64,000 bases of DNA, from positions 62,001-126,000 of the forward strand of contig NZ_FXAX01000003.1 of the NCBI RefSeq assembly GCF_900177805.1, in the 5' to 3' direction. A program made the position numbers and the translations under genes. This DNA is from Fibrobacter sp. UWB13. GTDB lineage: Bacteria > Fibrobacterota > Fibrobacteria > Fibrobacterales > Fibrobacteraceae. The stretch's first letter is position 1, and the number at the start of each line of letters is the position of its first letter. Under the pieces are notes generated by a model, which was not told the DNA's origin, ran no database searches, and saw only the letters and a list, made by a program, of their open reading frames with translations. Positions 53,831 through 57,934 of the stretch are shown here, in pieces.

Positions 53831-53892
53831 GGTAAGATTAATCTAATAATTTTCCGAAAAGAATTTAAAGTATATTTAGCATAGGTTTGGTT

Positions 53893-54723
53893 ATGGCAGA
53901 AATCTTTGATTACGATGACTACCGGGATATGATCAAGGATTATTACTTGGAGCATAAGAAACACAACTCCTTGTATTCCTTCAGCACTCTCGGCAAGACG
54001 CTTGGCTTGGATTCAAGTCACGCTTACTACATTGTTCAGAAAAAGCGCAATCTCCCCGTCCACGCAGTCCCCGCCGCAAAAAAAATGCTCGGGCTCGACG
54101 GTCGCGGAGCCGCATACTTCGACTTATTGATTGTCGCATCGCGCACGAAATCCGAAAAGACAAAGGCTGAAATCCTGCAAAAGGCGTTCCAGCTGCGCGA
54201 CGTGAAGCGCCATTTGCTCAAGGACAACGAGCTCAAGTATTTAAGCGCCTGGTGGACAATCGTCGTAAGAGCGCTTATCGAAGTGAAACACGGCAACGTG
54301 GACATCCCGGAAATCGCAAACAGCGTGATTCCGCCTATTACCGAAGAACAGGCGCAAGAAAGCATCGAGATTTTAAAGTCGCTCGGCTTTATCCAGCCGA
54401 TCAACAACAACAGCAAAGTCCGCCTCGCCGACCCGCACATCACGGTCCAAGGTGCCGAAAAGGCCGAAGCCATCCGCAGTTTCCATTCGAAGGTTATGCA
54501 GTTTGGCATCCGCTCGCTCAATGAAATTCCGCCAGAGAACCGCGACATTTCGACCATCACCATGGCGGTCGATTCCAAGGGATTCGAAGACCTGAAAAAG
54601 ATGCTCAAGGAATTCCGCAAAGAAATCCAGATTCGCGTTGACAAGTGCATTGTCCCTGATCGCGTTATGCAGTTGAACCTCGCTTTATTCCCCGTCGCAC
54701 TCAATAAGAAGAAGGAAAAATAA
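53893..54723 (+). CDS. TIGR02147-family protein (Fibrobacter-type regulator)
   Basis: 276 residues. The N terminus IFDYDDYRDMIKDYYLEHKK... SLYSFSTLGKTLGLDSSHAYYIVQKKRNLP is the hallmark of TIGR02147, a family described mainly in Fibrobacter and Bdellovibrio-like bacteria, with an HTH-like N-terminal part. A winged-helix-like segment (ITEEQAQESIEILKSLGFI) lies in the middle. It is very probably a DNA-binding regulator. It is followed after one base by a lipoprotein gene, the arrangement often seen for this family. ATG 53893 is preferred over a TTG six bases upstream. Confidence 0.88.
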   Translation: MAEIFDYDDYRDMIKDYYLEHKKHNSLYSFSTLGKTLGLDSSHAYYIVQKKRNLPVHAVPAAKKMLGLDGRGAAYFDLLIVASRTKSEKTKAEILQKAFQLRDVKRHLLKDNELKYLSAWWTIVVRALIEVKHGNVDIPEIANSVIPPITEEQAQESIEILKSLGFIQPINNNSKVRLADPHITVQGAEKAEAIRSFHSKVMQFGIRSLNEIPPENRDISTITMAVDSKGFEDLKKMLKEFRKEIQIRVDKCIVPDRVMQLNLALFPVALNKKKEK

Positions 54724-54724
54724 A

Positions 54725-56260
54725 ATGAAAAATTTTAACAAGCTTCTTTATTTGGTACCCTTTGGTCTCCTCGCTGCCTGCACAGCAAGCAACGACACGG
54801 CAGGGAATACGACGGAAATTGAAAACGCCATCGCCATCCGTGTTTTTGACGACGGTGCACCGGCTGCCAAAGTACGCTACCAGGTGCTCCCCTCTTGGTA
54901 CGTAGCCGACACCGCCGAAACAAGCACCGTAAAGTACACCTACGAAGGCGAAACCGATACAAACGGTTGGGTGCATATCGACGGCCACCAGAACGGATCT
55001 TACACCATCAATTTCACTAAGGGCGATTCTTCTATCGTCTTGCAGTACACGCTCAACAACCTGAACCACGAATACACGCTCGACAGCGCATCGCTCGAAG
55101 CGGTCGGCACGGTCAAGGGTCTTGTGGACTTGCCGGACTCCGCCAACTACGCCTGGGTTGCCGTCCAGGGCGTGAACACCATTGTCAAGACCGATACGCT
55201 CGGACAGTTCGTCATCCAGAAGGCTCCATGCGGGAACCTCACCGTGAGCGCCTGGGATTCCGAAGACCTCAGCTCCATTGGCGGAACCTCCGCAGTTGTG
55301 ACCTCGAACGACACGACGGATCTCGGCCTCATCGAGAACCCGAACAAGGTCGTCCCCGAGAACGCCATCCGCTTTATGCCTTCCGACTTGATTTCGGACT
55401 GGATGCGCCCGCTCAGCTTCCCGACCGTACTCGTCCTGCGCCTGACTGAAGAGAACTTCGACTTCTCGAAGGCCGAAAAGGACGGAAGTGACATTCGCCT
55501 CTACGACGGAAGCAACAACCTCATTCCGTTTGAAATCGACGGCTGGGATACGAGCATCAATAGCGCCACGCTCAACATCCGCGTCGAAAGCGCAGCTGAT
55601 ACCGTCAGACCGTGGATGCTCATGTGGGGCGACAAGAAGGCAAAGAAGATTGAAGACGTCGATGTTTGGGAAGGGCTCAGCGATTCGCTCGTCAGCGCCC
55701 TCAACAGCGTCGAGGTTTTGAATTTCGAAGCAGGCACCGACTTAAACGCACTGCCCGCGCCACTTAACTACAACTGGTACGTACAACCGCACGATAGTGC
55801 AACGGTCAAGAACAACCTTGACCAGAAGCCGACCAACGGCATCGAAAAGGCTGACAGCACCATCTTCGGCAAGAACATGCTGCATGTGCAGTACCAGGCG
55901 AACAAGCTCGGACGCTACGTTGTCATCGGAACGCGCATAGCCGCGCACCAGCACGACTTGAGCAGACTCGACTCCGTGGAAGTTTGGCTCAAGGGCAGCG
56001 GGGATTTCGAAGTATTCCTCGAGACGATTGTAGAATCCGATACAAACTACAAGACCTCGTATAAAGGAAGTGTCAACGAAGAATGGACTCGTGTCGCCAT
56101 CAAGCCATCCGATTTCACAAATCCGGACAAAAAAAGCTACCACGGCTGGGACGTGACACGCAACAAGATTACGCGCTTTACCATCTTTGTGTACAACGGC
56201 ACGGATATCTGGATTGATAACGTCAGAATGTACGGGATCAATTTAGACGACTTGCTGTAA
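54725..56260 (+). CDS. Lipoprotein with carbohydrate-binding-like C-terminal domain
   Basis: 511 residues. Lipobox LLAAC at the end of the signal peptide. Domains: a carboxypeptidase-regulatory-like beta domain (about 25-200, with a second repeat around GTVKGLVDLPDSANYAWV), a DUF2341-like segment (NAIRFMPSDLISDWMRPLSFPTVLVLRLTEENFDFSKAEKDGSDIRLYD), and a C-terminal jelly-roll (about 335-505; VLNFEAGTDLNAL... DSVEVWLKGSGDFEVFLET... IDNVRMYG) that resembles CBM11/CIA30-like modules. It probably binds polysaccharide at the cell surface. It is co-transcribed with the TIGR02147 gene. Confidence 0.75.
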   Translation: MKNFNKLLYLVPFGLLAACTASNDTAGNTTEIENAIAIRVFDDGAPAAKVRYQVLPSWYVADTAETSTVKYTYEGETDTNGWVHIDGHQNGSYTINFTKGDSSIVLQYTLNNLNHEYTLDSASLEAVGTVKGLVDLPDSANYAWVAVQGVNTIVKTDTLGQFVIQKAPCGNLTVSAWDSEDLSSIGGTSAVVTSNDTTDLGLIENPNKVVPENAIRFMPSDLISDWMRPLSFPTVLVLRLTEENFDFSKAEKDGSDIRLYDGSNNLIPFEIDGWDTSINSATLNIRVESAADTVRPWMLMWGDKKAKKIEDVDVWEGLSDSLVSALNSVEVLNFEAGTDLNALPAPLNYNWYVQPHDSATVKNNLDQKPTNGIEKADSTIFGKNMLHVQYQANKLGRYVVIGTRIAAHQHDLSRLDSVEVWLKGSGDFEVFLETIVESDTNYKTSYKGSVNEEWTRVAIKPSDFTNPDKKSYHGWDVTRNKITRFTIFVYNGTDIWIDNVRMYGINLDDLL

Positions 56261-56281
56261 TAACCCACTCTAAGGCAATTA

Positions 56282-56302
56282 AAAAGCCCCCTGTAAGGGG
56301 GC
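56282..56302 (-). terminator. Hairpin acting as minus-strand terminator
   Basis: GCCCCC-tgtaa-GGGGGC; on the minus strand it is followed by TTTTTAATT, on the plus strand by A8. It therefore ends transcripts coming from the MATE side. Confidence 0.65.
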
Positions 56303-56312
56303 AAAAAAAAAT

Positions 56313-56455
56313 GCCGGTTGGGATTAGAAGCTCTGTTCGGCAACTATCGAATCACGTCATTTTCGGTGAAAATCGATCAGAAGTCTCCATCCGATTACAG
56401 AAGCATCAGTTCTCCAACACTAACTGACGCTTTTTGCATCTAATCCCAAATCGGC
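56313..56455. ncRNA. Candidate structured RNA with a three-way junction
   Basis: The ends pair over about 16 bp (56313-56328 with 56439-56455: TTGGGATTAGA / TCTAATCCCAA plus GCCG / CGGC). Inside are an arm TCTGT-TCGG / CCGA-tt-ACAGA (56332-56340 with 56391-56401) carrying a further hairpin TTTTC-ggt-GAAAA with ATCGA/TCGAT, and a second arm GCATCAGTT / AACTGACGC (56403-56430). That last stem is perfect only on the minus strand (G-U), while the outer stem is slightly better on the plus strand. Each strand has a terminator on its far side. Confidence 0.5.
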
Positions 56456-56487
56456 TATTTGAACACTCGTAAATTACGTTTATTTAA

Positions 56488-56515
56488 GCCCCTTATCTCA
56501 AGAGGGCTTTTTTCG
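56488..56515 (+). terminator. Plus-strand terminator after the structured region
   Basis: AAGCCCC-ttatctcaag-AGGGCTTTTTTCG. It would end transcripts from the lipoprotein gene after they cross the structured element. The rest of the gap (56516-56584) holds a perfect inverted repeat TTGACA-aaa-TGTCAA (56520-56534) of unknown role. Confidence 0.7.
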
Positions 56516-56584
56516 TCCGTTGACAAAATGTCAAATTTTTGGCAATAGCGCCCGTATGGGCTAATCAGAAAACAAACATTTACA

Positions 56585-57934
56585 TTAAAAACGGGTATGT
56601 TTTACCCGATAAATGTATATCCCCGCCAAGACCATAATGGTCGTAATCCAGCTCACCGGATAAACCACCATCAGCGAAGCGAAGGAACGATACTGCGGGA
56701 ATACAAAAATAACCCAGAGGATTCGTATACCACAAACGCCAACCACGCAAGTCAGCGCCGGAGCCAAAGACTGCCCCATGCCTCGTAACGCGCCTGAGAA
56801 AACGTCCAAAAAGACATTGATAAACAGCACGCCAACCACGACGTACATGCGGATAGAACCCGTTGCAATAATTTCGGGATCGGACGTATACAACGAAAGC
56901 AAAGGCTTTGCAAAGTAGCAGCAAAGCATGCTCAACGCAAACGTAGAAGTCGTCGCAAGCAAAATGGTCCACCGGACTGCACTACGGCAGCGCTCCAGAT
57001 TTTTCGCCCCGTAATTTTGCCCCACGAATGTCACGCACGCATGCGAGAATGAATTGAGCCAGTAATAGACAATGAACTCGTAAGTGAGCGCCGCCGCAGA
57101 AGCCGCCACAGTTGCAGAACCAAGGCTGTTGATGGCCGACTGGAGGCAGACATTGCTAAACGAGAACACAACGCCCTGAAGCCCCGCCGGGAGCCCCACG
57201 CGCATAATGCGCCCGAGAAACACAGGCGTAATTCTCAACTTCCAGAATTCGAGCTTGAACGGTCCGACTTCGTGAAGCAAGAAGTAGAACAATGTCCCCG
57301 CACTCAGCGCATTTGCAATCACGGTCGCAAGCGCAACCCCCGTAACGCTCATGCCAAAACCTGCGACAAAGAGGACGTTCAGCAACACGTTGATAGCGCC
57401 CGTCGCAAGGAGCACGTAAAGCGGGCGTTTTGTATCGCCTTTGCCACGCAGGATTGCCGCCACAAAGTTATAAAGCATAACGAACGGAATCCCCGCAAAA
57501 TAGACTTGCAGATAGCGCACCGCCAAATCCAAGACATCCGCAGGTGTCGAAATTGCCGAAAGGATCGGCCGCGCAAAAAAGACTCCGATAAACGAGAGCA
57601 AAATTCCGCTTATGAACGAGACAATCACGGACGTGTGGACACTGCGGGTAATGGCACGATAGCTCTGCGCACCGATGGAATTCGCGACAACAACATTTAC
57701 GCCAACAGAGATGCCTACGAACAAGTTTATCAGCATGTTGATGACGAACGTATTCGCACCGACCGCCGCAAGTGCCTTGTCGCCAGCGAACTGTCCGACC
57801 ACGGCAATATCTGCCGCATTGAACAACTGTTGCAAAATGCTTGTCGCCGCAAGCGGAACGGCAAACCTCAGAATCTTACGACCGAGAGGTCCGTTCAACA
57901 TATCCATATTCGTCTTTAACGCATCCGTTGCCAT
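56585..57934 (-). CDS. MATE-family multidrug/organic cation exporter
   Basis: 449 residues with twelve predicted membrane spans in two similar halves. The N-terminal LNGPLGRKILRFAVPLAATSILQQLFNAADIAVVGQFAGDKALAAVGAN is the classic NorM/DinF-type signature; the second half starts near ITPVFLGRIMRVGLPAGLQGVVFSFSNVCLQSAINSLG. It exports drugs or metabolites in exchange for Na+ or H+. It is monocistronic and convergent with the lipoprotein gene. Confidence 0.92.
   Translation of the reverse strand: MATDALKTNMDMLNGPLGRKILRFAVPLAATSILQQLFNAADIAVVGQFAGDKALAAVGANTFVINMLINLFVGISVGVNVVVANSIGAQSYRAITRSVHTSVIVSFISGILLSFIGVFFARPILSAISTPADVLDLAVRYLQVYFAGIPFVMLYNFVAAILRGKGDTKRPLYVLLATGAINVLLNVLFVAGFGMSVTGVALATVIANALSAGTLFYFLLHEVGPFKLEFWKLRITPVFLGRIMRVGLPAGLQGVVFSFSNVCLQSAINSLGSATVAASAAALTYEFIVYYWLNSFSHACVTFVGQNYGAKNLERCRSAVRWTILLATTSTFALSMLCCYFAKPLLSLYTSDPEIIATGSIRMYVVVGVLFINVFLDVFSGALRGMGQSLAPALTCVVGVCGIRILWVIFVFPQYRSFASLMVVYPVSWITTIMVLAGIYIYRVKHTRF

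Follow-up and report, generated by a model that had tools for sequence, protein, structure and literature searches.

Between two convergent protein-coding genes of Fibrobacter sp. UWB13 lies a long inverted repeat with inner arms, which raises the questions of whether it represents an RNA gene, which strand is functional and from what such an RNA could have arisen. The locus was analyzed within a window, that is, the whole stretch of 64,000 nucleotides under study (contig NZ_FXAX01000003.1, positions 62,001 to 126,000), to which all coordinates refer. A first-pass annotation had described the repeat and its arms at 56313–56455, between convergent genes and flanked by terminators in both directions. 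The repeat and arms were recovered at the position claimed, the convergent genes lie at 54725–56260 (plus strand) and 56585–57934 (minus strand), and terminator-like sites were detected at 56302–56286 on the minus strand and at 56490–56506 on the plus strand. Folding of 56313–56455 yielded –49.6 kcal/mol for the plus strand (z –5.8) and –51.0 kcal/mol for the minus strand (z –4.8), values equaled by 0 of 200 shuffles in either case. On the minus strand, the fold is a three-way junction: 17 pairs make up the closing stem P1, hairpin P3 has 10 bp and a loop of 10 nt, and the arm P2 bears an extra hairpin. We termed the 17 species that carry this RNA, the window genome included, type A. The features of the locus are:

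53887–54723, plus strand: gene of a putative regulator (TIGR02147/DUF4423), directly upstream of the lipoprotein gene
54725–56260, plus strand: gene of a 511-aa lipoprotein-like protein with a weak DUF2341 match, convergent, the syntenic partner
About 56281–56302, minus strand: second terminator hairpin, GCCCCC/GGGGGC followed by TTTTT (terminator scan)
56303–56311, minus strand: U-tract directly after P1, with P1 as predicted intrinsic terminator (from the sequence)
56313–56455, minus strand: structured RNA core of P1, P3 and the branched P2 (fold z –4.8, covariation, 17 species)
56313–56331, minus strand: 3′ arm of P1, ..TTCTAATCCCAACCGGC, equivalent to esterase codons L-I-P-N-G
56332–56401, minus strand: arm P2 with conserved UCUG/CAGA and UCGG/CCGA pairs, an internal loop with conserved UGGAG and a variable distal hairpin P2b
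56402–56431, minus strand: hairpin P3 of 10 bp, loop at 56412–56421 with invariant GUUGGAG
56436–56455, minus strand: 5′ arm of P1, GCCGATTTGGGATTAGATGC, equivalent to esterase codons A-D-L-G-L-D
56473–56478, minus strand: putative –10 element CGTAAT, CATAAT or GATAAT in many relatives (conservation)
56496–56501, minus strand: putative –35 element TTGAGA, 17 nt from the –10 (from the sequence)
56520–56535, minus strand: palindrome TTTGACATTTTGTCAA, a putative operator about 60 nt before the predicted start (97% mean identity, 17 species)
56585–57934, minus strand: MATE-family transporter gene, separating the RNA from ychF in all type-A genomes but G054

The regulator and lipoprotein-like genes are one base apart (53887–56260), and this pair is kept at the locus in 40 genomes, while the genes on the other side change.

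The covariance models of Rfam 15 detected no family at or above the gathering threshold at the window RNA or at the related type-B loci described below, and a low-threshold scan (E up to 10) returned only weak, sub-threshold matches at the RNA. A genome search found a single copy of the sequence in its own genome, which ruled out a mobile or repeated element (MITE, REP, attC). A riboswitch or other cis-acting leader was likewise rejected, given that the minus-strand RNA runs into terminators and then into the convergent lipoprotein gene. Elsewhere in the window, Rfam identified an ftsZ-DE RNA, a known family (RF02985; 15697–15765, minus strand, 97 bits), and a tRNA gene (RF00005; 32059–32132, minus strand).

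Full-length homologues with 73–80% identity to the window and the same synteny were present in 16 other Fibrobacter species. Applied to the minus strand of the 17 type-A sequences, RNAalifold recovered most of the junction without any prior structure. With the structure held fixed, 96.7% of the cells paired and 11 pairs were changed on both sides. A count as high as this was reached in 0 of 500 shuffles, and the covariation measures lay above all or all but one of the 500; shuffles ignore relatedness, whereas slid controls do not, and the latter stayed well below, reaching at most 6 double-changed pairs versus 11. Double changes affected four of the ten pairs of P3, all of whose cells were paired, and five of the seven pairs of P2b. 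The loop motifs GUUGGAG (P3) and UGGAG (P2) were invariant in type A and recurred as UUGGRG/GGAG in most other forms. G-U cells outnumbered A-C cells in the minus-strand structure by 48 to 4, demonstrating that the minus strand is the one under selection and ruling out an RNA encoded on the plus strand. A covariance model (R1) built from the 17 sequences scored them with 131–179 bits on the minus strand, compared to 19–29 bits for opposite-strand matches; among 168 genomes of the phylum, an R1 search found no homologue outside the genus. The mean pairwise identity across the 17 species was 97% in the operator and 81% in the RNA, while the bases just past the T-run dropped to 27%. With covariation, no Rfam match and conserved stems in 17 species, the earlier proposal of a new structured RNA withstood the check in related genomes that it had called for. 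The strand, the conservation in 16 other species and the descent from an esterase gene go beyond that annotation.

On the minus strand, the elements follow each other in the order palindrome, TTGAGA/TTGxxA box, 17 nt, –10-like element, about 15 nt, P1 and T-rich tract. The –10 region showed a mean identity of 84% in the 17 species versus 62–64% in its flanks, and the T-rich tract 3′ of P1 was found in nearly all of them. A simple sigma-70 consensus scan of the window reported no promoter at the RNA, where the –10 reads CGTAAT. Terminator-like sites were overrepresented (5 found versus 0.4 expected). The layout looks like that of a small RNA gene with a predicted promoter and terminated by its own closing stem; the predicted transcript of some 160 nt would begin near 56466, downstream of the palindromic operator, and end near 56303. 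No second site with up to one mismatch to the palindrome was found in the genome. Among relatives, TTGACAtttTGTCAA (56520–56535) varies symmetrically as TTTACAtttTGTAAA, as expected for the site of a dimeric regulator, and it is plausible that the neighboring TIGR02147 ("Fsuc_second") protein is the regulator reading it.

The first-pass annotation had left the choice between an independent RNA and a shared 3′ UTR module. The MATE gene separates the RNA from ychF in 16 of the 17 type-A species, neither in G054 nor in the other lineages examined, and appears to be a type-A insertion. Its absence from the RNA-bearing G054 indicated that the RNA is not simply the 3′ UTR of the MATE transcript. This observation, along with the minus strand, the upstream palindrome and –10-like region and the passage of P1 into a T-rich tract, favored the independent RNA over the UTR module.

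A search of 80 genomes of the genus with R1 revealed another 12 matches that were diverged yet full-length; each of them adjoined the orthologous lipoprotein gene, on the strand opposite to it. In 8 of the 12 (G059, G051, G022, G013, G021, G060, G063, G020), the match fell within an undamaged esterase gene encoding about 370 aa, which Pfam assigned to the SASA family, i.e., a sialic-acid-type carbohydrate esterase. The remaining four (G009, G053, G062, G078), termed type B, had kept the promoter region and a degraded piece of the esterase gene that bears the same closing stem. The fragment of G009 was 61% identical to esterase residues 194–244 (tblastn, 1e-16), and tblastn also matched type-B G078 to residues 201–238 (1.6e-4) as well as type-A G069 and G072 to residues 197–257 (3e-4) and 204–220 (0.001), respectively. 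When the stems were held fixed, the type-A interior outscored interior-shuffled controls in its alignment to the coding region in five of six comparisons (z up to 6.4), G057 being less clear than the other five. The reading frame itself was lost: most type-A forms contained stops or length changes, and no start codon was common to them.

The upstream region pointed in the same direction. In G059, G022, G013, G026, G063 and G020, the operator palindrome, as TTGACATTTTGTCAA or TTTACATTTTGTAAA, was located 105–138 nt before the first esterase ORF, in most cases with a comparable –10-like element after it. For the G059 group and G026, the palindrome stood ahead of a two-gene operon with the SASA esterase as its second gene. 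The RNA gene thus corresponds to the esterase gene or operon stripped of all but the promoter region and a single internal piece. As judged from these alignments, the RNA can be shown to descend from codons ~196–243 of a SASA-type esterase gene that is still present at the locus in relatives; both the orthologous position and the similarity to an intact coding gene that characterize a non-coding RNA from a lost protein gene were found. We consider an independent RNA gene and its esterase descent, taken together, very probable.

The closing stem could be followed into the coding genes. At the locus itself, the esterase genes showed perfect complementarity of 12–15 nt between the two arms of P1 (codons DLGLD and LIPNG), in contrast to stems of 3–7 bp in esterase homologues located elsewhere, among them the copy in the window genome (C1:425066). 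Synonymous shuffling reproduced the stem 0 or 1 times in 20,000 trials. The inner stem changed in sequence from lineage to lineage but kept its pairing: it read GACTC/GAGTC in the G059 group, GATCC/GGATC in G063 and G020, and GTTCC/GGAAC, CCCC/GGGG, CCTCA/TGAGG or CCCT/AGGG in type B. G026 possessed a 20-bp version of other sequence, and G028, from an earlier branch, only a weak 11-bp version. These comparisons show that the closing stem was already part of the coding gene and is older than the loss of the protein. Across the entire RNA region of the esterase genes, synonymous sites showed no excess conservation, the stem alone standing out. Whole-fold z scores of the coding forms lay between –1.9 and –3.0 for the G059 group and were –0.4 for G063 and –0.5 for G020.

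A locus tree of the neighboring TIGR02147, lipoprotein and ychF proteins placed types A, B and a further form, D, in one clade each. Type A was sister to the G059 esterase group (100/100), type B fell into another clade together with the intact esterases of G063 and G020 (100/99), and the early branches (G028/G037, G026) carried intact esterases. RNA-only forms thus occur in separate lineages, which implies that the protein was lost at least twice and the same piece kept; apparently, the coding gene decayed in at least two lineages, while its promoter region and the RNA segment were retained. Formally, the locus could also have been transferred horizontally; type A shares its operator version with the sister group that bears the esterase and not with type B. 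Type D (G003, G019, G064, G070) combined the operator with a shorter remnant and a differently built closing stem, and may represent a third case of protein loss with the RNA kept. Because its folds surpassed shuffles by no more than a moderate margin (z –1.6 to –2.7), we gave it no weight. The type-D remnants (L215, L217, L218, L216) are followed by a common terminator (type ACCGGTC..GACCGGTCTTTTTT) and have a stretch CUGGGUUGGAGA conserved among them. At two other loci (L214 in G044, L213 in G010), the lipoprotein gene was present with neither esterase nor RNA, so neither is essential in the genus.

Our reading of this history, which we hold to be slightly favored, is that a dual-use esterase mRNA evolved an RNA element within its coding sequence and that two to three lineages independently dropped the protein, keeping a piece of about 145 nt and the promoter region; the type-A line perhaps lost the whole two-gene operon. 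The esterase transcript would have carried an RNA element with a role of its own, which outlived the protein. The mode of action is the least certain part of the mechanism. The RNA might act in trans as a small regulator, a step we put forward tentatively and infer with less support than the preceding one. It would be made when the regulator of the operator, perhaps the neighboring TIGR02147 protein, permits, and the two purine-rich loops on the junction (GUUGGAG in P3, UGGAG in P2) would pair with mRNA or bind a protein other than CsrA or Hfq. The conserved loops suit a pairing or protein-binding site. Hfq (PF17209) had no match in the genome, while control genomes were positive, and an Hfq-dependent sRNA was rejected. 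A target search with the complement of the P3 loop returned 21 sites versus 17 for the reversed control pattern, i.e., no enrichment, with no site at a convincing start region.

Several other explanations were weighed against an esterase-derived, trans-acting RNA gene. That the RNA, or its closing stem, acts in cis on the convergent lipoprotein gene, whose transcript may extend across the locus, as an antisense or transcription-end module would agree with the tail-to-tail arrangement in nearly all forms and with the position of the sole plus-strand terminator found in the window (56490–56506), which sits beyond the RNA. However, this terminator is not conserved in all other species, base-pairing selection favors the minus strand, and a mere terminator requires neither invariant loops nor a 97% conserved upstream operator; we regard such a role as rather unlikely. 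Still less probable is a decaying pseudogene, that is, an esterase remnant with a promoter and a leftover inverted repeat but no function. Decay is at odds with the compensatory changes in P1, P3 and P2b, which exceeded every one of 500 shuffles, with loops invariant across 17 species, with the rebuilding of P1 from different sequences in type B and with the conservation of operator and RNA compared to the bases just after the T-run, even though the sequence is recognizable as an esterase remnant, remnant lengths differ and some relatives (G010, G044) have lost it entirely.

The conserved GGAG in both arms (P3 loop and P2 internal loop) would also fit a sponge of the CsrB/RsmY type, whose loop GGA motifs titrate a translation regulator. 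The conserved loop motifs number only two, however, and the genome contains no CsrA (Pfam PF02599 without a match, control genomes positive), making this option about as improbable as the pseudogene, although an RNA-binding protein other than CsrA may be the partner. Hardly credible at all is a small peptide encoded in P3: GGAGAAUUGAUG in several type-A species resembles a ribosome site and start codon (GGAG..AUG), but the start codon is gone in G057, G069 and G005, and indels between species break the frame. An independent, esterase-derived RNA gene acting in trans was retained as the best explanation as a whole, and as such we consider it probable.

SgrS is a dual-function RNA, with protein and RNA roles on one transcript. 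The inferred ancestral esterase transcript would resemble it in uniting both roles, but its protein is a 374-aa enzyme and the putative RNA element lies inside the coding sequence. With the CsrB/RsmY sponges the RNA shares GGA in loops, but it differs in architecture and belongs to a genome without CsrA. Conversion of protein genes into RNA genes has been documented for mammalian lncRNAs, e.g., XIST from Lnx3 (PMC5577775, PMC12101419). The Fibrobacter RNA parallels these in its orthologous position, recognizable coding remnant and lost reading frame; unlike them, it is bacterial, about 150 nt long and strongly folded, its closing stem is older than the protein loss and the loss occurred in parallel lineages. 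The IpeX RNA of the E. coli cryptic prophage DLP12 is processed from a porin transcript (PMC12197685) and is likewise a small RNA tied to the transcript and promoter of a protein gene, whereas in Fibrobacter the coding gene is mostly gone and the RNA lies directly behind the inherited promoter region. A literature search among open-licence papers turned up neither a small RNA from Fibrobacter nor a bacterial gene with intact, intermediate and RNA-only states.

With this locus, rumen Fibrobacter gains a new RNA family, in a genome searched without finding CsrA or Hfq. A bacterial case of a protein gene turned RNA gene with intact, intermediate and RNA-only states in one genus would make the steps directly testable. 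The locus also suggests that autonomous RNA elements reside within the coding sequence of some bacterial mRNAs, and that functional RNAs can go unnoticed among "pseudogene remnants".
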